Shown here in pieces: positions 10,408-40,130 of a DNA stretch of 64,000 nucleotides. Below the pieces are notes generated by a model that was given only the letters and a program-made list of their open reading frames with translations, made no database searches and was not told the DNA's origin. The DNA lies in NCBI RefSeq assembly GCF_013394305.1, contig NZ_AP019810.1, forward strand, positions 2,234,001-2,298,000, given 5' to 3'. The stretch comes from Enterococcus mundtii. Its GTDB lineage: Bacteria > Bacillota > Bacilli > Lactobacillales > Enterococcaceae. Every line of letters starts with the position of its first letter. Position 1 is the stretch's first letter. The position numbers and the translations under genes were made by a program.

Positions 10408-10709
10408 CAAATCTCCTCCTAATCATTTTTTAATACATTACTATTGTTATATGTAATGGAAAAAAATTCAAAGAAAACGCTCTAGATATTATAGTTATTT
10501 TATAAACGTTGATTTATCAATGTTTTATTCTGTGAAAATGACTTCGTTAAAAGAAAATATTAGGAATAGCTCAATGAAATATTTTTGTTTATAAATGATA
10601 ACTATTGATAATTTCCAATTGTATTCTCATTTTTGTTAACAGAAAGTAAGTAACGAGAAAGAAGAGCTGGTCACATCAAAGAACGATTGTTTTTAAGTCT
10701 CAGGTCAAA
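10408..10709. other. Non-coding region upstream of manganese catalase
   Basis: AT-rich leader and promoter space of the catalase. Direct TGATAA-like repeats near 10595-10612 could be a metal- or peroxide-regulator site, but no exact PerR, Fur or MntR palindrome is seen. The last bases (CGCTTTT at 10711-10717) look like the end of a further degenerate unit of the repeat that follows. Confidence 0.35.
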
Positions 10710-10975
10710 ACGCTTTTGTCACGACCTGATCCACGGTGTTTGAAAGCCAACTCCTACGATATTAAGTCAAAAATTGAAAAAATATGAGAAGCTATTTTCT
10801 CAATTTCCGTCTTAATACTTGGAGCTGACCGGCTTTCTCACGACCTGATAAACGGTGTTCAAGAAGCAACACTTCGGTCCTAAGCAAAAAAAAATCAAAA
10901 ATGAAAGAGCCATTTTCGCTTTTTTTGCTTATGCCTTAGTGCTGATCGCTTCTTTCACGACCTATTGTTACTTGT
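10710..10975. repeat. Modular intergenic repeat: two long hairpins joined by a conserved linker
   Basis: The linker TCACGACCTGAT-2 nt-ACGGTGTT occurs at 10719-10740 and 10838-10859, and its first 9 bases recur at 10955-10963. Between linkers lie two imperfect hairpins of about 92-94 bases: 10743-10836 (AAAGCC...GGCTTT outer, TATTAAG...CTTAATA middle) and 10862-10953 (AGAAGC...GCTTCT outer, AAGCAAAAAAA...TTTTTTTGCTT inner). The arms differ in sequence but keep the same plan and a shared right-arm GCTGAYC motif, so base pairing is conserved while sequence is not. It resembles the modular EFAR-type repeats described in E. faecalis, which I could not confirm. Confidence 0.75.
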
Positions 10976-11029
10976 AGAATGTTTGCTTCTTTGATATGGT
11001 TAGTACAAGAAAAACATCGGAGGTATATC

Positions 11030-30417: not shown

Positions 30418-31026
30418 ATGAATTATTTTATCAGTGATATGCATTTTTTCCATGAACGGTTGCTCGGTAATAGTGATTTTTCGCCACGACCATTTAAAAA
30501 TATTGCCCACATGCACCATCAATTAATCACTAGTTGGAATGCAGTCGTAAAGGAATCCGACCATGTTTATCATCTAGGGGACCTCGCGATGCACCCTAAG
30601 TATGAAAAAGGTAGCGCAGAAATTCTTTCCTTAGTCAAAGAACTGAATGGCACGATCCACTTTATCAAAGGGAATCATGACAGTCGGGCCTTTTTCAACT
30701 ACTTGGAACAACATGATCCGTGGAAAAAGGAAGGAAAGCAAAAGTTTCACTTTTATGATGTAGGTGTCATCATAAAATTCAATCACCAACAATACTATTT
30801 GACCCATTATCCATTGTTGCTCGGAGGCAATGATAAAATACGCAATCTTCATGGACATATCCATCACTACAGCGTACCCATCGGCAACGACGTCAATGTA
30901 GGCGTAGATGCTCCAGAGCGAGAATTATTAAAAACAAAACGCCCGTTTGGCACGCCACTTTCGGAAGCAGAGATTGAAGAAATCTATGAAGCAAAGTTTC
31001 AAGAGCTACAAAAAATTCAACGCTAA
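30418..31026 (+). CDS. Calcineurin-like metallophosphoesterase
   Basis: Cytoplasmic phosphoesterase of 202 residues with the full metal-binding set: S-D-M-H-F-F-H near 5-11, L-G-D-L near 53-56, K-G-N-H-D near 82-86, T-H-Y-P near 128-131 and H-G-H-I-H near 144-148. Small stand-alone members act on cyclic nucleotides, dinucleotides or phosphodiesters; the substrate cannot be assigned. Good ribosome site AAAGGAGAG. Confidence 0.9.
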   Translation: MNYFISDMHFFHERLLGNSDFSPRPFKNIAHMHHQLITSWNAVVKESDHVYHLGDLAMHPKYEKGSAEILSLVKELNGTIHFIKGNHDSRAFFNYLEQHDPWKKEGKQKFHFYDVGVIIKFNHQQYYLTHYPLLLGGNDKIRNLHGHIHHYSVPIGNDVNVGVDAPERELLKTKRPFGTPLSEAEIEEIYEAKFQELQKIQR

Positions 31027-31182: not shown

Positions 31183-31869
31183 ATGATCAAAAAATTGAGT
31201 GTAAGTTTAGCTTCAGTTGGCCTATTCAGTGCATTTGCTTTTGGTGCTGTTCCTACCTTTGCTGACACATCGCAAGGAACAGAACAAGTCGGTGAAGAAG
31301 TAGAAACAAAAGAAGAACTATTAAAAATGTTGCAAGAAGAATACGGCACAGAAGACAGATTTTATCTTGAATTTGAGGATGATGAATACAAAGAAGAAAT
31401 CAATCCAGTAACTGGAATGGCTAGAACCACTAATAAAAAAACAGGGGAAACGGAAGAATATGAAGCATTCGGGGAATTTGAATTATTTACAAAAGAAGAA
31501 TTTCTAAAATCACTACAAGAAGAATACGGGACAGAGGACAAATTCTTTTTAGAGTATGAAGATGATCAAACGAAAGAAGAAATCAATCCGATTACTGGAA
31601 TGGCTCGAATAACAGATAAGGAAAAGGGGACGATTGAAGAGTACGATGCGTTCAAAGCACTTGAAACAGTCACAAATGACAAACTGCTTCAAACATTGCA
31701 AGAAGAATATGGTACAGAAAATCGGTTTTATCTAGTCTATGAAGATGAAGAGATCAAAGAAGAGATTAATCCTGTAACAGGAATGAGTCGACTGACTGAT
31801 AAAGAATCCGGTGAAGTCGATGAACTCTCCCTCATCGAAGAGACAGAAGTTGCTGGATCAAAAGAATAA
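31183..31869 (+). CDS. Secreted acidic protein of three 61-residue repeats
   Basis: A 228-residue protein with signal peptide (1-28, cut near F-A-D-T). The mature part is almost wholly three tandem repeats with an exact 61-residue period, starting near 42, 103 and 164. Each has the core L-Q-E-E-Y-G-T-E-D/N, then F-x-L-x-x-E-D-D/E, K-E-E-I-N-P-V/I-T-G-M-A/S-R and T-D-K-E-x-G. The mature protein is strongly acidic. There is no LPxTG, LysM or membrane anchor, so it is probably released or held by charge. No known family recognised. A GAGGTGATG site precedes the start. Confidence 0.85.
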   Translation: MIKKLSVSLASVGLFSAFAFGAVPTFADTSQGTEQVGEEVETKEELLKMLQEEYGTEDRFYLEFEDDEYKEEINPVTGMARTTNKKTGETEEYEAFGEFELFTKEEFLKSLQEEYGTEDKFFLEYEDDQTKEEINPITGMARITDKEKGTIEEYDAFKALETVTNDKLLQTLQEEYGTENRFYLVYEDEEIKEEINPVTGMSRLTDKESGEVDELSLIEETEVAGSKE

Positions 31870-32173: not shown

Positions 32174-34087
32174 TTAAATAATACAATTGACGAGTTTTCC
32201 TTGATTATTCAATCCTTTACCAACAGTGGCTGTCCCATCATTCAAACGTTTAAGATCATTCGTGATATTTGTTGAGTAGACGATAAGGACCTCTTCTTTT
32301 GTATATTGATTCAACCAGTCGATCGCGTAATCCACAGATTGGTTGACGCCGATATGATAGTAATAATTTTGGTAAATCGTTTTGGCTTCATCGGTCATTG
32401 TAAAATCATGGTTCAGTCCATACCCGTTTCTCTGAGAAGCAGGCGTAGTGAAAGAGCCATGGAATCGTAGATAAGTAGCGGAACGATAGGTACCATTTTC
32501 TAGCTTGATCAAGGCATGGAAGTTATTAAAGAAGTAATACCAAGTCGGACGGTTCTTCGTGTAGGATACATCATAATTCAATGGATTCGGATAGGCCAGA
32601 TCATAATTTTCATAGACACTTAAATTCTCCGTGTAATCAAATTTTCTTTGAGTAAATGCTGGAGGAGTATGTACTACTTGACTAACTAAATAGCCATATG
32701 AAGGATGTGCTTTTTGATCGATTTTTGAATAAGTCGGATTATAGCGTAAGTGATTACTATCCGTCGTGATATCTTTTGAGTAAACAATATCAAAGCTACA
32801 CTGAGTATAGCGATTGATCCAATTCATCACGTAATTTGGGATATCCGCAAGTTCAATACCATTAGGTACAACAGGGATATTTTTATCTGCGTATTTTTGC
32901 TTCGCTTCATCAGTCAAAGCGAAATTGGTGAATAAATCTAATTGTGCAACAACATTTCCATTGGCGTTCCGACCGAGTGTAAGTGATTTATTGGTGTAGG
33001 GACGTTGGTTGTTTTGGTCGATGGCTAAGAAATGATAGTCGTTTTCAAGGTAATAAAGGTTAGAATTCGGGCTGAAAACAAAATCTTCACCTTGAAGCGG
33101 CGCACCTTCCCCTGACCAAGTAATATTTTTTATATAATCGATGTGTTCGGGAAACGAAGGACTGATTTTTTCCAGTTTATCGGAGCGTTTTATATCATTA
33201 GGCGTAATCGTTGGTGATTCGAATAGGTCATCTTTTGACTCGATGTCGATTCCATGGAAATTTGGGTCATCTCCAGGCGTCAGGTCATCAATGCTGCCAT
33301 CAGGTGTAGCGTTCATATATGCAGCCCATACGAGCATGGAACAGTACCAACTTTGTCTGCTAAAAGTACGATCCCGATGTCCGATTATATCTAATGCAGA
33401 ATATTTTTTTCCTAATTGACTTTTCATAAATAAAACAGCAGCTTGTTTTTGTAAAACAGTTGCTTCAGGGACTCTTAAGATAGAGGCATTGGTATAATCA
33501 AAACGCTCGTCATCTAATACGCCGTAGACAACGCCATCACTTTTGGCGCCGAAGTTTCCTTTTGTCGCTTCAATTGTTCGAATATATGTAAAGGTTTCTT
33601 CTTTTCCGTTGATCATATGAGTTTCTTCAACAATATCATCGACAATCATGACATGATGCAGATATCTGATGACCATATCAGCTCTGTTTACCTCAAAAAT
33701 AACATCTCCAGGCTGGACCGTATTTAACAAGTCATAAGTACCATATTCCGGCTTCTTTTCAAAAGTAATATTATCTAAAGAATTGCCAATATTGAAAGAC
33801 CATAGTGGTGGGATTTTCGCTAACCATTCTGCTTCCTCGGTTAAATACGTGTCATTGACGGAATGTGCATATTCTTTTAATTGATCCTCATCTAAATAAG
33901 GTGTCTGGTTGTAGTAACCAGCTGAAAATTCCTCAAATGTCTGCTCGAAGGAAGCGTATTCATTTTTGAAAAATTCATAATAATCCTCTAAAGACTGATA
34001 AGAGTCCGCTTCGGCATGTACCTGCATATTTGAGAATTGAAGTGAAACGATTAATAAAAAAGTTGTGAAAAAAAGTTTGAGCTTCAT
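32174..34087 (-). CDS. Large secreted protein: permuted NlpC/P60 (YiiX-like) enzyme domain plus duplicated C-terminal domain
   Basis: A 637-residue protein with signal peptide (1-25, cut near V-H-A). Residues about 100-270 look like a circularly permuted papain-fold hydrolase (YiiX/YebB type): His in L-H-H-V-M-I-V near 142, Glu in T-I-E-A-T near 170 and Cys in W-Y-C-S-M-L-V-W near 247. The C-terminal half holds two related copies of about 140 residues (near 335-470 and 495-630), each with an aromatic start, the phrase F-T/A-x-T-D-E-A-K near its middle and an N-W/D-W-L/I-N-R/Q-Y-T segment followed by V-Y-S-K/T-x-I-T. Possible role: wall-associated or secreted hydrolase with paired binding domains. 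Strong AAGGAGG site. Confidence 0.75.
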   Translation of the reverse strand: MKLKLFFTTFLLIVSLQFSNMQVHAEADSYQSLEDYYEFFKNEYASFEQTFEEFSAGYYNQTPYLDEDQLKEYAHSVNDTYLTEEAEWLAKIPPLWSFNIGNSLDNITFEKKPEYGTYDLLNTVQPGDVIFEVNRADMVIRYLHHVMIVDDIVEETHMINGKEETFTYIRTIEATKGNFGAKSDGVVYGVLDDERFDYTNASILRVPEATVLQKQAAVLFMKSQLGKKYSALDIIGHRDRTFSRQSWYCSMLVWAAYMNATPDGSIDDLTPGDDPNFHGIDIESKDDLFESPTITPNDIKRSDKLEKISPSFPEHIDYIKNITWSGEGAPLQGEDFVFSPNSNLYYLENDYHFLAIDQNNQRPYTNKSLTLGRNANGNVVAQLDLFTNFALTDEAKQKYADKNIPVVPNGIELADIPNYVMNWINRYTQCSFDIVYSKDITTDSNHLRYNPTYSKIDQKAHPSYGYLVSQVVHTPPAFTQRKFDYTENLSVYENYDLAYPNPLNYDVSYTKNRPTWYYFFNNFHALIKLENGTYRSATYLRFHGSFTTPASQRNGYGLNHDFTMTDEAKTIYQNYYYHIGVNQSVDYAIDWLNQYTKEEVLIVYSTNITNDLKRLNDGTATVGKGLNNQGKLVNCII

Positions 34088-34397
34088 GATATTTCCTCCT
34101 TAATTTTATGATAAAATAATAACATACAAATATTTATAAAAGCACCTATTTTTTTGATTTTATATGTTTTTTTATATGAATTTATGGAAAAGCTTTTATC
34201 TAATTATGTTTATCATTAAAAGTTAATGTGAAGAATTTTCCATTATTTCTCTGCAAGTTAATTAATTCATTTTAAAGTTATTTTAACTTTTATTTTAAAT
34301 AACGATTTATTGGTTTTTGATTGTTAGATGTATAATTTTTCTATTAATCCAAAAATAGCTTTGATTATTTTAAATGAAGCGAAGAAAGGAGTAGCTT
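34088..34397. promoter_or_regulatory. AT-rich divergent promoter region
   Basis: 310 bases between the divergent secreted protein and the small membrane protein array. A TATAAT lies at 34331-34336 on the plus strand, 62 bases before the first array gene, without a good -35. Many T-rich runs. No gene or known RNA motif is seen. Confidence 0.4.
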
Positions 34398-34658
34398 ATG
34401 AATGGGTACAAAATCGGCTTGTGTACGTCAATGTCCTTATCTATTCTGTGTATTATTGGTTCGCTGGTTGATGGACGTGGACTAATTGGATTATTGTTAG
34501 TTTTTTTAACAATTATTCCAGGATTTTTTGGGATCTATTTTACAACTAAAATCACTATGGATAAGCTTCTGAAATCTTTTTTGTTCATCGTAAATTATTT
34601 ATTCGCAACGCATCTTCATATCAGATATTTCATCCAGTTTTTAACGAGGGTTCTATAG
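34398..34658 (+). CDS. Array gene 1: small three-helix membrane protein, alpha type
   Basis: An 86-residue protein that is almost wholly membrane. Helices lie at about 5-24, 28-49 and 58-80. It carries the alpha signature I-I-P-G-F-F-G-I-Y-F-T-T-K near 39-51 and V-N-Y-L-F-A-T near 65-71. First of 13 same-strand genes to 38809, each with its own ribosome site (here AAAGGAG). Function unknown; no database family recognised. Confidence 0.78.
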   Translation: MNGYKIGLCTSMSLSILCIIGSLVDGRGLIGLLLVFLTIIPGFFGIYFTTKITMDKLLKSFLFIVNYLFATHLHIRYFIQFLTRVL

Positions 34659-34738
34659 GTTGTCAGAGATCAACGAATAAAAATCAGCTGAATCAGCGAA
34701 TAGCGTTACCTAAAATTTTTAGAAGAAAGGAAGATTAG

Positions 34739-35005
34739 ATGAACGGTTATAAAATCGGGTTAATTGTTTCTATGATTTTATCGATCTTATGTTTATTGGG
34801 AATACTCATAGATTATAGAGGGTATGTTGGTTTTATTTTGTCATTTGTAATCATAATTCCTGGCTTTTTGGGAATTTATTTTACTACAAAAACTACCATG
34901 AAAAAGTACATAGAGTGGACTCTGTTAGTCGTGAATTATTTATTTGCGACTACGCTCATCGGATGGGACGTTGTCCATGTTTTCTTACGATTTTTTTATA
35001 AATAA
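34739..35005 (+). CDS. Array gene 2: alpha type
   Basis: An 88-residue protein, closest to gene 1: both start M-N-G-Y-K-I-G-L and share I-I-P-G-F-L-G-I-Y-F-T-T-K and V-N-Y-L-F-A-T. Three helices. Ribosome site AAAGGAAG. Genes 1 and 2 are the only two alpha genes in a row, so they may be a recent tandem duplication. Confidence 0.78.
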   Translation: MNGYKIGLIVSMILSILCLLGILIDYRGYVGFILSFVIIIPGFLGIYFTTKTTMKKYIEWTLLVVNYLFATTLIGWDVVHVFLRFFYK

Positions 35006-35051
35006 AAAGGACCAGACGTATCAATAAAGATATTGAAAGCAGGAGAAAAAA

Positions 35052-35306
35052 ATGATTCAAAATAAAAAATACTGGATTTTGTCGTTTGTATTATTGATAC
35101 TTTCATGTCTACTTGCTAGACATTATTTTTTATCCTATAGACTATATCCACTTGTATATCAAAGGATTATTGTCTACGGTTGTTGGATACTAAGCGGATT
35201 TAGTTTATTTTTTTGTCGGGCGATCAGTAATAAATTTCTGAAACGTATTGTCATTAGCATCAACATTTTCTGTATTTATGGTTGGTGGTTTATATATGAT
35301 TTTTGA
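35052..35306 (+). CDS. Array gene 3: small three-helix membrane protein, beta type
   Basis: An 84-residue protein with the beta signature: C-W-I-L-S-G-F-S-L-F-F near 45-55, then L-K-R and I-N-I-F-C-I-Y-G-W-W-F near 70-80. The spacing between the F-F-S/C-T-like box and the conserved Asn matches the alpha proteins, so the two types are probably sister families. Near-duplicate of gene 8 (36666). Ribosome site AGGAG. Confidence 0.78.
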   Translation: MIQNKKYWILSFVLLILSCLLARHYFLSYRLYPLVYQRIIVYGCWILSGFSLFFCRAISNKFLKRIVISINIFCIYGWWFIYDF

Positions 35307-35342
35307 AAATACAGATATTCATAAATTTAAAAGGAGAATAAG

Positions 35343-35612
35343 ATGACGAATAACCAATTCAGATTATCTATAGCAATGTTTTTTTCGATGAGTTGCTTTG
35401 TTGGAGGAATCATTTCCGGAGAGAGTGCTCTACGGATTATTTTGTTTTTCATGATGACTTTTCCAAGTCTGCTAGGACTTTATTTTTCCACTAAAGCGGA
35501 ACTTCGACAGTATAAATGGTTGCTTATTTCTTTGAATTACTTTTTTGCTACGTATATTGTTATTGGGCAATTCATTGAATGGTTTATTAGAAAGTTTATC
35601 CAAATGAGTTAA
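35343..35612 (+). CDS. Array gene 4: alpha type
   Basis: An 89-residue protein starting M-T-N-N-Q-F-R-L, with L-L-G-L-Y-F-S-T-K near 43-51 and L-N-Y-F-F-A-T near 64-70. Near-duplicate of gene 9 (36964) including the upstream AAAAGGAGAATAAG site, so genes 3-4 and 8-9 are copies of one beta-alpha pair. Confidence 0.78.
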   Translation: MTNNQFRLSIAMFFSMSCFVGGIISGESALRIILFFMMTFPSLLGLYFSTKAELRQYKWLLISLNYFFATYIVIGQFIEWFIRKFIQMS

Positions 35613-35636
35613 GACTATTTACGAGGAGGAATAGGA

Positions 35637-35894
35637 ATGTTAACCAAGAAAAATTATTTAGAATTTATTCTTTCAATTGTTTTATTGGCAATCTCTATTC
35701 TTTTATTTTTATTCTATGCCTATCCGTATTCTAAATTGCAATATGAAATCAGAATATTCATCATGACGGTTTGTTGGTTATGTAGCACTGCAAGTTTGTT
35801 TTTTTCAACGAAAATCACTTATCCATATTTGAAAAGAGGAATCATATTAGTGAATTTTTGTTGTATCTATGGTTGGTTATTTTATTTTGGTTAG
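35637..35894 (+). CDS. Array gene 5: beta type
   Basis: An 85-residue protein with C-W-L-C-S-T-A-S-L-F-F-S-T-K near 46-59 and V-N-F-C-C-I-Y-G-W-L-F near 71-81. It keeps S-T-K like the alpha proteins, which links the two types. Ribosome site GAGGAGGAA. Confidence 0.77.
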   Translation: MLTKKNYLEFILSIVLLAISILLFLFYAYPYSKLQYEIRIFIMTVCWLCSTASLFFSTKITYPYLKRGIILVNFCCIYGWLFYFG

Positions 35895-35933
35895 TCTATG
35901 TGTGCTTGTAAAATAGTAAAAAGGAGCGTATAA

Positions 35934-36231
35934 ATGTCTTTTCCAAAAAAATAAGTCTCGTACAAAAAAATCAGTAGTTCTATTGGTATTATCAATTTTT
36001 CTTGTATTTATTACGTGTGTCTTTGCTAGTCCCATCTTGTTTGACTCATTTAAGTATCAACCGCATCTATTTATAGTCACAATTTCGATTTGTTGGGTCA
36101 TCAATGGAGGGAGTATCGTTTTTGCGTTAGGAATCGCAGATAGATACCTGAAAAGGACGTTGATTACGTTGAATTTTGTGTTTAGCTATGTCTTTTTATC
36201 TACGATTTTTCATTTTTCTTTGAATTTTTGA
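35934..36231 (+). pseudogene. Array gene 6: beta type, interrupted in an A7 tract
   Basis: AAAAAGGAG is followed by ATG at 35934, but the frame stops after six codons (TAA 35952-35954) directly after an A7 run (35945-35951). With A6 the frame would continue M-S-F-P-K-N-K-S-R-T-K-K into the open frame ending at 36231, giving about 98 residues with C-W-V-I-N-G-G-S-I and a late L-N-F box. The match to the beta box is weaker than in its neighbours. It could be a switched-off, decayed, slippage-translated or mis-sequenced gene. Confidence 0.6.
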
Positions 36232-36286
36232 AGCTATTTCTGTTTTTAGTGAGAAATATTGATGTTGATAAGGAGGAGAAAGAAGT

Positions 36287-36574
36287 ATGAAACGTGCATT
36301 GAATCTAGTCGTTTTATTTTTGTCAATACTTGCATGTGTCAGTGGTCTGTTTTATATACATATTTATTTAAGTGGAGAAATTGAGGGGATTCTTTTTGCA
36401 TTAGGTTTAGGTTTTCCGGGTTTGATTGGTTTTTATTGTTCGACAAAAATAAAAAAGACGAAGTTGAAATGGCTACTGCTAGGGCTGAATTACCTTTTCG
36501 CTACTTACAGTACCGTCTTGATTATCGTAATTTATTGGTTACAAGTCTTCGGGATAGAGTTTTTTACAAGTTAG
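36287..36574 (+). CDS. Array gene 7: alpha type
   Basis: A 95-residue protein, the longest single-module member. F-P-G-L-I-G-F-Y-C-S-T-K near 44-55 and L-N-Y-L-F-A-T near 68-74. Helices at about 5-26, 34-52 and 60-88. Ribosome site AAGGAGGAG. Confidence 0.77.
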   Translation: MKRALNLVVLFLSILACVSGLFYIHIYLSGEIEGILFALGLGFPGLIGFYCSTKIKKTKLKWLLLGLNYLFATYSTVLIIVIYWLQVFGIEFFTS

Positions 36575-36665
36575 TACATTTTATTTTATGTATCAATTGA
36601 ACAATTTAAAAATTAATAGAAATTATATCTAGTTGTGAGTGGATTTAAGAAAGAAGGAGTCACAT

Positions 36666-36920
36666 ATGATTATAAAACAGAATAACAAGTACTGGATTTT
36701 ATCGATCATCTTTTTGTTCGCTTCTTGTTTATTTAGTAGCAGTTATTTTTCATCTTATAGAACTTTGCCTCTTGTATATCAAGGAATCATCGTTATCAGT
36801 TGTTGGTTATTGAGTGGATGTAGTTTGTTTTTTTCTACAGGAATCAACAATAAATTTATTAAGTGTATTGTTGTAGGAGCGAATATTTTTTGTATTTATG
36901 GTTGGTGGTTTATATTTTGA
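36666..36920 (+). CDS. Array gene 8: beta type
   Basis: An 84-residue protein nearly identical in plan to gene 3 (shared N-K-Y-W-I-L-S, S-Y-R-x-x-P-L-V-Y-Q and N-I-F-C-I-Y-G-W-W-F-I). C-W-L-L-S-G-C-S-L-F-F-S-T-G near 45-58. The frame opens at 36639, but ATG 36666 follows AAGAAGGAG. Confidence 0.78.
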   Translation: MIIKQNNKYWILSIIFLFASCLFSSSYFSSYRTLPLVYQGIIVISCWLLSGCSLFFSTGINNKFIKCIVVGANIFCIYGWWFIF

Positions 36921-36963
36921 TTTTTGAAACTACAGATATTCATAAAATTAAAAGGAGAATAAG

Positions 36964-37227
36964 ATGACGAATAATCAATTCAGATTATTAATAGCGATGT
37001 TTTTTTCGATTTGTTGTTTTGTTGGAGAAATCGTTTATGGAGATAGTCCTCAGAGTGTCTTATTGTTTTTCATTATGACATTTCCTGGATTAGCTGGGTT
37101 TTATTATTCGATAAAAGCGAATCTTGGACGATACAAATGGATGATTGTTTCTCTGAATTATTTTTTTGCTACATTTATTATTATTGGACAATTCATTCAA
37201 TTAATTGTTTTAACTTTGAACAATTAA
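36964..37227 (+). CDS. Array gene 9: alpha type
   Basis: An 87-residue near-copy of gene 4: M-T-N-N-Q-F-R-L start, F-P-G-L-A-G-F-Y-Y-S-I-K near 41-52 and L-N-Y-F-F-A-T near 64-70. The upstream 40 bases are also almost the same as those before gene 4. Confidence 0.78.
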   Translation: MTNNQFRLLIAMFFSICCFVGEIVYGDSPQSVLLFFIMTFPGLAGFYYSIKANLGRYKWMIVSLNYFFATFIIIGQFIQLIVLTLNN

Positions 37228-37260
37228 TAGAGTTAAATATTACTTGAAAGGGAGATTGAA

Positions 37261-37510
37261 ATGAAAAGTACATACAAAAGATATTGTTCATTGATTATTT
37301 TACTCTTATCGATCAGTGTGATTACGTTCAGTATGGTTCAAGGAGGTCGCTATAGTATTGAATGGCGAGTAATATTGACATCGATTTGTTGGCTACTTAG
37401 CAGTATAAGTTTATTTTTTTCAAGGTTCATTGAAAGTAAAGCCTTAAAAAACTTAGTCATTTTTTTTGAACTTTAGTTGTATCTATGGTTGGCTGTTTTC
37501 CTTTAGTTAA
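37261..37510 (+). pseudogene. Array gene 10: beta type, interrupted in a T8 tract
   Basis: ATG 37261 with AAAGGGAG opens a frame of 71 residues, including C-W-L-L-S-S-I-S-L-F-F-S near 44-55, then stops at 37474-37476 just after a T8 run (37460-37467). Removing one T continues the frame as F-L-N-F-S-C-I-Y-G-W-L-F-S to a stop at 37508-37510, exactly the conserved beta ending. As sequenced the product lacks the last conserved box. Confidence 0.72.
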
Positions 37511-37600
37511 GACTCTATTTACTGGTGAAATGAACAGTAACTGTACATAGAAAAAAGCACCATAACGCCACAATAAATAAAAGATGAATAGGAGATCACC

Positions 37601-37864
37601 ATGAAATTCCATAAAATAGGATTGGGTCTTTCGATGCTGTTGTCTATCTTATTTATGATAGGGAGCTTTCTATATCGAGAAGAGCCACTTTCAAGTTTTG
37701 CATTTATCCTGTACATGGTAATTCCTGGACTTATGGGGATTTATTTTACGAACTGTCTTACGATGAGTAACTATCAGAAAGGATTTCTCTTAGTCGTAAA
37801 TTATGGATTTGCGACCGCTATGAGTTTGATGCGTGTGATTGAGTTTATTTCTAGTAAGCTATGA
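37601..37864 (+). CDS. Array gene 11: alpha type
   Basis: An 87-residue protein with I-P-G-L-M-G-I-Y-F-T-N near 44-54 and V-N-Y-G-F-A-T near 66-72; the usual K of T-T-K is replaced (N-C). Start K-I-G-L-G-L-S-M-L-L-S-I-L resembles genes 1 and 2. Ribosome site AGGAGAT. Confidence 0.77.
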   Translation: MKFHKIGLGLSMLLSILFMIGSFLYREEPLSSFAFILYMVIPGLMGIYFTNCLTMSNYQKGFLLVVNYGFATAMSLMRVIEFISSKL

Positions 37865-37895
37865 TCGGTAATCGTTGAAAAAAGGAGTGAGATGA

Positions 37896-38160
37896 ATGAT
37901 TTCGATTGAACCTAAAAGATTTAAGTTTTTTCCCTACTATTTATGTGCTTGTCAGTTTTTTTGCGATTTTTTATTTTTTACCGTATTTACCATATTTACC
38001 ATATACTGGCGAGACTAAATTGATGATTTCCACGATTTGCTGGTTCTTGAGTGGGATTAGTTTATTTTTTTCGACAGGAATAAAATTCGGTTGGGTAAAA
38101 GTATTGATCATTTTGGTTAACTGGTTCTGTATCTTTGGCTGGTGGTTTTCTACTAGATAA
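37896..38160 (+). pseudogene. Array gene 12: beta type, interrupted in a T6 tract
   Basis: AAAAGGAG is placed for ATG 37896, which reads M-I-S-I-E-P-K-R-F-K-F-F and then leaves the conserved frame at a T6 run (about 37925-37931). Removing one T joins it to the frame ending at 38160, with C-W-F-L-S-G-I-S-L-F-F-S-T-G and V-N-W-F-C-I-F-G-W-W-F. A TTG at 37906 is in that frame but lies too far from the ribosome site. Confidence 0.65.
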
Positions 38161-38185
38161 GTATGTTTTAAAAGGAGTGAGTGGA

Positions 38186-38809
38186 ATGTTTGTAAAAAAA
38201 AGTATGCCGAATAAATATATTTCGTTCTATCTATTGGCGCTTTGTTTTCTATTAGGAAGTTTAGTTTTTGTTTTCAAATTTTATTGGTTATTTGCAACAG
38301 TCCAATATTCTTGGTGGATCATCAGTGGAATCAGTTTGTTTTACTCAACTAGAATCCCCTCAGCATTCTTAAAAAGAGTGCTCATTGGCATTCATCTTGT
38401 TTTGATGTACGGTATTGTACTAGGAACTTTATTAGGTTTTGTCAGCTTTGGTAAGGTGGAGTATTTATTGTTCCCTGTTGCGTACGTATTAATTGTGGGC
38501 GCGCTTCATGAGTTAGAGAAAAAGAAAGCATTCTTTATCATGGGATTGATCATCCCGATGTCTATTTCTACACTCGCATTTATTTATGCTCATTATTTGA
38601 TTATTTTTCAAAGTCATTCATTCGAAAGTTATTATTTGATTCCTTTACTGATGTTGATGGTGATCTCTGGCTTGATTGGATTATACGCCGCAACAAAGCT
38701 TGAAACTAGCCGGCGAAAATTTTACTTATTGTTTATCAACTATTTGTTTTCTACATATTTCAATGTTGTGCTGTTACTTTTGTTTTTGGTGAATGTAGTA
38801 AGAAACTGA
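38186..38809 (+). CDS. Array gene 13: beta-alpha fusion membrane protein
   Basis: A 207-residue protein that joins one beta module (residues about 1-95: W-W-I-I-S-G-I-S-L-F-Y-S-T-R then I-H-L-V-L-M-Y-G) to one alpha module (about 110-207: I-S-G-L-I-G-L-Y-A-A-T-K then I-N-Y-L-F-S-T). About six to seven helices. The fusion suggests that separate alpha and beta products act together in one complex. ATG 38186 follows AAAGGAGTGAG; the longer frame from 38135 overlaps gene 12. Last gene of the array; no strong terminator follows. Confidence 0.8.
   Translation: MFVKKSMPNKYISFYLLALCFLLGSLVFVFKFYWLFATVQYSWWIISGISLFYSTRIPSAFLKRVLIGIHLVLMYGIVLGTLLGFVSFGKVEYLLFPVAYVLIVGALHELEKKKAFFIMGLIIPMSISTLAFIYAHYLIIFQSHSFESYYLIPLLMLMVISGLIGLYAATKLETSRRKFYLLFINYLFSTYFNVVLLLLFLVNVVRN

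Positions 38810-38993: not shown

Positions 38994-40130
<1,137 letters not shown>

Follow-up and report, generated by a model that had tools for sequence, protein, structure and literature searches.

What would a bacterium do with thirteen consecutive genes that encode two kinds of tiny membrane protein? We examined this question for an array of Enterococcus mundtii that lies in a 64,000-nt stretch of DNA (G000:C1:2234001-2298000 of a 3.30 Mb genome; hereafter the window) and for its relatives in other genomes, which are referred to by locus (L) or genome (G) handles. The array (34398-38809, all genes on the + strand) comprises seven alpha and seven beta domains and stands beside a divergent gene for a predicted secreted enzyme. 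We favour the reading of a toxin/poly-immunity locus, in which membrane modules built from beta-alpha pairs would act against variants of the secreted and probably lipid-targeting enzyme. Our confidence in this reading is middling, because the genetics of the locus point to conflict while toxicity and protection are what we infer from them.

Two sister families in beta-alpha order

The 13 genes follow the order alpha, alpha, beta, alpha, beta, beta, alpha, beta, alpha, beta, alpha, beta and beta-alpha fusion, with a ribosome site of GGAG/AGGA/GGGAG type 5' of all 13 starts and intergenic gaps of 24-124 nt. The coordinates, strand, gene order and module counts given in the initial annotation were all correct on re-analysis, and so was its remark that every gene keeps its own ribosome site across short gaps, with the qualification that two of these sites (beta genes 35934 and 37896) lead into early-closing frames. 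The extent that it gave held for the array but not for the full locus, which is larger and includes the enzyme gene at 32174-34087. All seven alpha modules are open frames, namely alpha1 (34398..34658, 86 amino acids (aa), with three predicted transmembrane (TM) segments), alpha2 (34739..35005, 88 aa), alpha3 (35343..35612, 89 aa), alpha4 (36287..36574, 95 aa), alpha5 (36964..37227, 87 aa), alpha6 (37601..37864, 87 aa) and the second half of the beta7-alpha7 fusion (38186..38809, 207 aa). The beta series includes beta1 (35052..35306, 84 aa), beta2 (35637..35894, 85 aa) and beta4 (36666..36920, 84 aa), together with three genes out of the seven whose frames are shifted, in or close to homopolymer tracts, when compared with one or more related species. 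In particular, beta3 (35934..36231) has its frameshift near the start, beta5 (37261..37476) is truncated by a frameshift that the full-length copies of L028 and L029 lack, and beta6 (37896..38160) is frameshifted in its N-terminal part in the window and open in L029.

Separate alpha and beta profiles were built from the 12 single-domain genes of the window, and the two fusion halves were excluded from the building. The beta half of the fusion scored 34.6 bits with the beta profile and -2.2 with the other, and the alpha half scored 38.4 and -2.1 bits, respectively. The array is not a chance pattern, because the profiles place these unused halves clearly and the array recurs in other species. 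The two families look homologous, as three-helix sister families: the profile-profile comparison had a score of 32.5 (probability 82%, P 1.1e-5, with an aligned part of 37 columns only), where the best of 100 column shuffles reached 19.3 and the reversed profile 10.8, and both families have a box around [GS]-L-Y/F-F-S-T-K, followed by L-K and L-V-N. The common ancestor that had been proposed for them is thus supported by a score above all 100 shuffles.

Neither family had a convincing Pfam, NCBIfam or PDB match, and both are new to the libraries searched. The Pfam and NCBIfam searches with 9 array open reading frames (ORFs) at E 1 and with 25 array domains at E 0.1 returned only scattered single weak matches, the strongest being YniD (0.0012, in one member), and the array profile had no match among PDB sequences at E 1. 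PADLOC assigned three array proteins and the enzyme to 0 families, with a weak match for a repeat protein of the same region; the array fusion matched none of 50,697 phage records, and no viral contig gave a confirmed match. The possibility that alpha and beta belong to unrelated known families, which the initial annotation had left standing, did not materialise, as no known family claims either of them.

Three hydrophobic segments were found in 11 out of the 12 single-domain ORFs of the window, and two in the truncated beta5. Positively charged residues, whose distribution follows the orientation of a membrane protein, concentrate at the N terminus and in loop 2 of both families, and this suggests an N-in, C-out arrangement for alpha and beta alike. 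Paralogues are least alike in loop 1 and the C tail (14-27% identity), and their identity reaches 33-42% in loop 2; the pattern backs the idea of an outside-facing variable loop and tail weakly, because the alpha N terminus is also low (20%). Hydropathy of 11 two-domain ORFs gave seven segments in six of them, six in four and five in one. The AlphaFold2 model of the window fusion has seven helices (9-28, 34-53, 60-85, then 90-109, then 115-141, 146-170 and 176-206), that is three, one linker helix and three (predicted template modelling score 0.55), and we read it for helix count only, because its mean predicted local distance difference test score (pLDDT) is 62.4. The added linker helix would keep the second half in the same orientation, since a three-helix module ends on the side opposite to its start.

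This predicted build resembles that of SemiSWEET/SWEET proteins and microbial rhodopsins, which consist of three-helix halves and have fusions of three helices, a linker helix and three helices in parallel orientation. The alpha-beta pairs could accordingly be a small transporter or channel of SWEET, SMR or Fluc-like build that works outside any conflict, and the predicted three-TM halves, the predicted 3+1+3 fusions and the seven helices of the model would fit such a protein. We consider this a poor prospect: a whole-genome search with the SWEET profile MtN3_slv (PF03083) at E 10 gave two weak places, neither in the array, the 25 array domains had no SMR, CRCB or SWEET match in Pfam at E 0.1, and Foldseek found no match at E 0.001. 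The copy number, the frameshifts and the crossover described below are also untypical for a transporter.

The order of the two families was examined in domains from the window and ten further genomes, classified with the same profiles; domains below 12 bits were dropped, including the N-terminal half of a 200 aa ORF of L034, and ORFs with only one classifiable half were left out. Beta came first and alpha last in all 13 fusions with both halves scorable: one each in the window, L028, L029, L032, L033 and L034, two in L031 (one of them beta-beta-alpha) and five in L035. The independent cases are fewer than 13, because the fusions of the window, L028 and L029 are orthologues. Five of the seven beta modules of the window are directly followed by alpha and two by another beta. 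A block of ~0.5 kb with beta1, the intergenic DNA and alpha3 (35058..35580, + strand) is duplicated as beta4-alpha5 (36678..37201, + strand; families D1 81%, D2 72%). By these patterns, the unit of the array is the beta-alpha pair. The proposal of paired subunits gains support from the fusion order and from the duplication of a whole unit, and it is compatible with a poly-immunity function. The beta-beta-alpha ORF of L031 (L031:6314-7252, 312 aa), in which by eye TM1 of an alpha is joined to TM2 of a beta, looks like a second product of crossover between units.

Crossover, copy number and spread of the array

Copy number has changed within the array by recombination. The loci L028, L029 and L030 carry alpha-x, beta-x, alpha-y and beta-y where the window has alpha2 and beta1 only. 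At 83 sites the x copies are identical in all three relatives, as are the y copies, and x differs from y; at these sites alpha2 has 60 consecutive x states, then 21 y and 2 other, and no later x (with gap columns excluded, 40 x states precede 16 y and 2 other). The single switch from x to y falls between the last x site at 34919 and the first y site at 34957, inside the conserved NYLFAT box; the crossover-bearing stretch (34919..34957, + strand) is thus that of the conserved LLVVNYLFATTL box. Alpha2 is therefore a chimera of two tandem alpha paralogues of the relatives, formed by a crossover between them in which one beta-alpha unit was lost. The copy number of esaG and tipC changes in this manner as well, when tandem copies recombine at conserved blocks (PMC9484751), and alpha2 has the same signature of a crossover between tandem paralogues at a conserved block.

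Relatives of the array were found in Enterococcus, in E. mundtii, E. lactis, E. villorum, E. durans, a strain filed as E. faecalis 13-SD-W-01 and Enterococcus sp. ZJ1622. The family profile search detected modules in 11 of the 16 genus genomes; among the 106 genomes of the taxonomic family, 12 had a match at E 1e-6, the twelfth (G022) having one lone ORF. Across 396 genomes of the order, 18 matched at E 0.001, and the 8 outside the genus had one weak match each. Counting modules above 12 bits and including fragments, we found 16 each in L028 and L029, 14 in the window, 13 each in L030 and L031, 11 in L035, 5 in L034, 4 each in L032 and L033, 3 in L037 and 2 in L036. The variable module number (2-16 per array-bearing genome) agrees with what had been predicted, and the opposite outcome, an array that has no homologues elsewhere and is in general decay, did not occur: arrays are present in 11 of the 16 genomes, and the decay seen in the three frameshifted beta genes is not general.

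These broken genes, together with the broken fusion of L030 and several broken modules elsewhere, would be expected of a lineage-specific family that drifts by gene birth and death and has kept little or no function. We regard drift as the least probable of the alternatives, given that nonsynonymous divergence (dN) is below synonymous divergence (dS) in most orthologue comparisons (alpha1 and alpha6 are exceptions in some), that ribosome sites are retained at 13 of 13 starts and that the locus persists in 11 genomes.

The array and the enzyme gene or its remnant lie together in an islet between yfcE and mnmA in 9 of the 11 array-bearing genomes (the window, L028, L029, L030, L031, L033, L034, L035 and L037). 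In the window, the islet is bounded on the left by a yfcE-like phosphoesterase gene (30418..31026, + strand) and on the right by a gene (39009..40130, + strand) that we take to be mnmA from its sequence. In L036, yfcE was not found within the stretch read, and L032 (G002) has no enzyme and carries its modules beyond yfcE and mnmA, outside the interval between them. This enzyme-less layout consists of a fusion gene downstream of mnmA and a beta-alpha pair upstream of yfcE (L032:5738-6337 and 10459-10985). Four of the five array-less genomes of the genus have yfcE beside mnmA with neither array nor enzyme between them, at a spacing of 185 nt in three and of 361 nt in one with yfcE inverted; in the fifth, yfcE was not found nearby.

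The divergent enzyme and its mosaic core

The enzyme gene (32174..34087, - strand) encodes 637 aa, with an N-terminal signal-peptide-like stretch that was judged by eye, a C92 YiiX-like core at ~124-308 and a C-terminal internal repeat. Peptidase_C92 (PF05708) matched all six full-length members at E 0.01 (best 2.8e-9), and H144/H145, E173, Y229 and C249 are invariant in all six, in permuted order. The motif roles of this His, acidic, Tyr and Cys set are described in PMC3142127, as is the binding of fatty acids by YiiX-type enzymes. The match of the predicted protein to the permuted NlpC/P60 enzymes (C92, YiiX-like), weak in the window, is firm at the level of the family. The second half has an internal repeat of 30% over 109 columns. 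The C-terminal end has a conserved Cys-Ile-[Ile/Leu] and there is a further invariant Cys at 430; a disulphide is possible. The structure model had a mean pLDDT of 44.7, the enzyme profile had no match among PDB sequences at E 1 and the enzyme alone none at E 10, and no match was found in 72,556 plasmid records.

The enzyme gene was detected in 10 out of the 106 genomes of the taxonomic family, all ten array-bearing, and no enzyme without an array was found among the genomes searched; across 398 genomes of the class, the enzyme profile matched one at E 1e-8, the window's own. The gene is full length in six of the ten. In the other four (G004, G005, G006 and G014), tblastn recovered only enzyme fragments without the catalytic core, the open frames there are short, and the array is kept in all four. 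This is the pattern of immunity outliving its toxin, although the numbers are small and the genomes related. In G006 the enzyme gap is filled by two frames, which look to us like IS200/IS605 genes. Beside the enzyme remnant of L036, two near-identical stretches (L036:5805-7436) surround a small gene pair that is presumably a toxin-antitoxin module.

An enzyme that needs a membrane partner would also account for the co-location. LnsA is a permuted NlpC/P60 enzyme that requires a membrane partner (PMC7387801), and enzyme and membrane proteins of the islet could likewise form a surface-modifying machine, similar to LnsA and LnsB in lipoprotein N-acylation, whose copies would diversify substrate choice. 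The placement of enzyme and array in the same islet with putative divergent promoters agrees with this. We consider it improbable nevertheless, as a partner should vanish with its enzyme but the array outlives the enzyme in 4 of 10 genomes, and 16 modules would be unusual for a partner. Both cases combine a YiiX-like permuted enzyme and a membrane protein, but LnsB is CPBP-like, single copy and encoded elsewhere in the genome (PMC7387801), and here a multiplied array stands beside the enzyme gene. The 25 array domains had no match to CPBP/CAAX-type protease profiles of Pfam at E 0.1, which is a weak test, because LnsB itself is only remotely similar to the CPBP family (PMC7387801).

The core of the enzyme is a mosaic. 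In windows of 60 codons, compared among the window, L029 and L030, the core had dN 0.09-0.18 and dS 0.52-1.84, and the N- and C-terminal parts did not exceed dN 0.06 and dS 0.48. The controls were 60 windows in yfcE, mnmA and two MFS genes (a TetR gene was left out because its alignment was an artefact), with dN up to 0.08 and dS up to 0.96; thus the dN of the core exceeds all controls and its dS overlaps them at the low end. Since the core stands above the controls in dN and is as conserved as the rest of the protein in distant species, we take it to have been exchanged among lineages while under constraint, and not to be a toxin tip that changes freely.

The proposed toxin and immunity compared with known systems

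In the toxin/poly-immunity reading, the divergent gene would yield a secreted permuted NlpC/P60 enzyme that acts on the outer face of the cell membrane in neighbouring bacteria, with the acyl groups of lipids as its probable target, and the array would yield small membrane proteins that protect the producer. The protective unit would be the beta-alpha pair, as 3+3 helices or as one 3+1+3 fusion chain, with its variable loop and tail on the predicted outer side, within reach of the enzyme, and each pair may block one enzyme variant. Pairs would multiply, vanish and reshuffle through recombination between tandem copies, so that the locus would persist as a stock of protection even after loss of the enzyme gene. 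The poly-immunity idea of the initial annotation gains support from the 2-16 modules, the recombination between paralogues and the co-location with one secreted enzyme gene.

Several points weigh against this reading. Toxicity, secretion and protection are predicted here for enzyme and array from sequence. The window enzyme scores 24.5 bits, below the Pfam cut-off of 27; its gene is divergent from the array and does not form a common operon with it. G002 has array modules at places other than the islet and no enzyme, and the co-occurrence of enzyme and array may be one event, because all 16 genomes have common ancestry. The mosaic core has dN/dS well below 1 and in distant species its conservation (62-67%, against 50-74% for the rest) is not lower, so it is not the swapped polymorphic tip of the classical kind. 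Finally, beta and alpha distances within genomes correlate overall (r 0.63, 3/5000 shuffles), but the correlation is absent in G012 (r -0.21), and near relatives make up three of the genomes. We set beta-alpha co-inheritance aside as evidence, as it is carried by one duplication in close relatives and absent in G012.

The array could also be a stock of immunity against other toxins (bacteriocins, LXG proteins or other membrane-acting ones), with the enzyme gene as a mere islet neighbour. The array of G002 without a detected enzyme and the four further genomes with only enzyme fragments would fit, as would the LXG genes found in 5 of the 16 genus genomes, all five array-bearing. On the other hand, LXG matches are missing from 6 of the 11 genomes with an array and 10 of the 11 have the enzyme gene or a remnant, and we judge this explanation unlikely. 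A link to type VII toxins is not supported by the LXG counts, and the only LXG match in the window's genome (C1:912062-912637) is >1.3 Mb away from the array. The earlier comparison with TsaI failed at the level of the family, as the DUF443 profile (PF04276) had no match to array proteins among 9 ORFs at E 1 and 25 domains at E 0.1; searched against the whole genome at E 10, it gave two weak places, neither in the array. TsaI/DUF443 membership was thus rejected.

The tandem type VII arrays of esaG, tipC and tsaI nevertheless resemble the present one (PMC9484751), as strings of non-identical paralogues with orphan copies without a toxin; esaG and tipC share with it the copy-number change through recombination at conserved blocks, and TsaI is likewise a membrane protein. 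They differ in consisting of one family, whereas two sister families in beta-alpha order occur here and no type VII toxin is present at the locus.

The closest likeness in the enzyme is Tox-Act1, a permuted NlpC/P60 phospholipase toxin of the Salmonella type VI secretion system (T6SS) that attacks phospholipids and is answered by Imm-Act1, an immunity protein with two transmembrane helices (PMC12994826). Both cases have a permuted NlpC/P60 core and a small integral membrane protein as neighbour and proposed protector. Tox-Act1 is delivered by the T6SS, is countered by one 2-TM immunity protein and has demonstrated phospholipase activity, whereas the present locus, known from its sequence, has a signal-peptide-bearing 637 aa Gram-positive protein and two 3-TM sister families.

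A toxin with tandem immunity genes is of a known kind; the paired array of two families and its partner enzyme are new. No description of such a locus was found in titles and abstract openings of the openly available literature, in agreement with the earlier statement that no described system has this form. If the reading is true, the locus is an undescribed enterococcal antagonism system that sets a secreted permuted NlpC/P60 enzyme against paired tiny membrane proteins. Until recently, permuted NlpC/P60 enzymes were known as toxins only among T6SS effectors, and membrane-embedded immunity to lipid-attacking enzymes and the widening of a repertoire through two-chain pairing would become testable. 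Even if the immunity reading fails, there is a two-part membrane module, unannotated in the libraries searched, that has been multiplied and reshuffled in a fixed beta-alpha order and that carries a record of crossover.

A bolder version, which we put forward tentatively and think doubtful, is that beta and alpha are obligate heterodimers with a new 3+1+3 membrane immunity fold. With beta and alpha encoded separately in one array, every beta could combine with every alpha, and a locus with seven of both would then give many more protective pairs than it has genes, while fusion in other species would fix good pairs. The partner would be a lipid-targeting permuted NlpC/P60 toxin of Gram-positives that is exported by Sec and does not use the type VII pathway.

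The region between enzyme gene and array (34088..34397) is the place for the putative divergent promoters; 29 promoter-like sites were counted against 36.1 in shuffles, which is fewer, and no promoter was established there. Among the matching genomes outside the genus, G022, G278, G201 and G212, viewed in wider context, have lone 3-TM ORFs, two of them side by side in G201, and no array or enzyme was recognised near these. Weakly related 3-TM ORFs of ~90-105 aa were also seen outside the genus (L105:6619-7170 and L104:6505-6822), two of them adjacent in L105 and one 3' of a 131 aa gene in L104. Finally, the islet of the window, L028 and L029 holds a secreted-looking repeat protein (31183..31869, + strand in the window) of 228 aa, with Pfam matches to short stretches only (DUF2492 just above the cut-off) and three near-identical repeats of ~55 aa.

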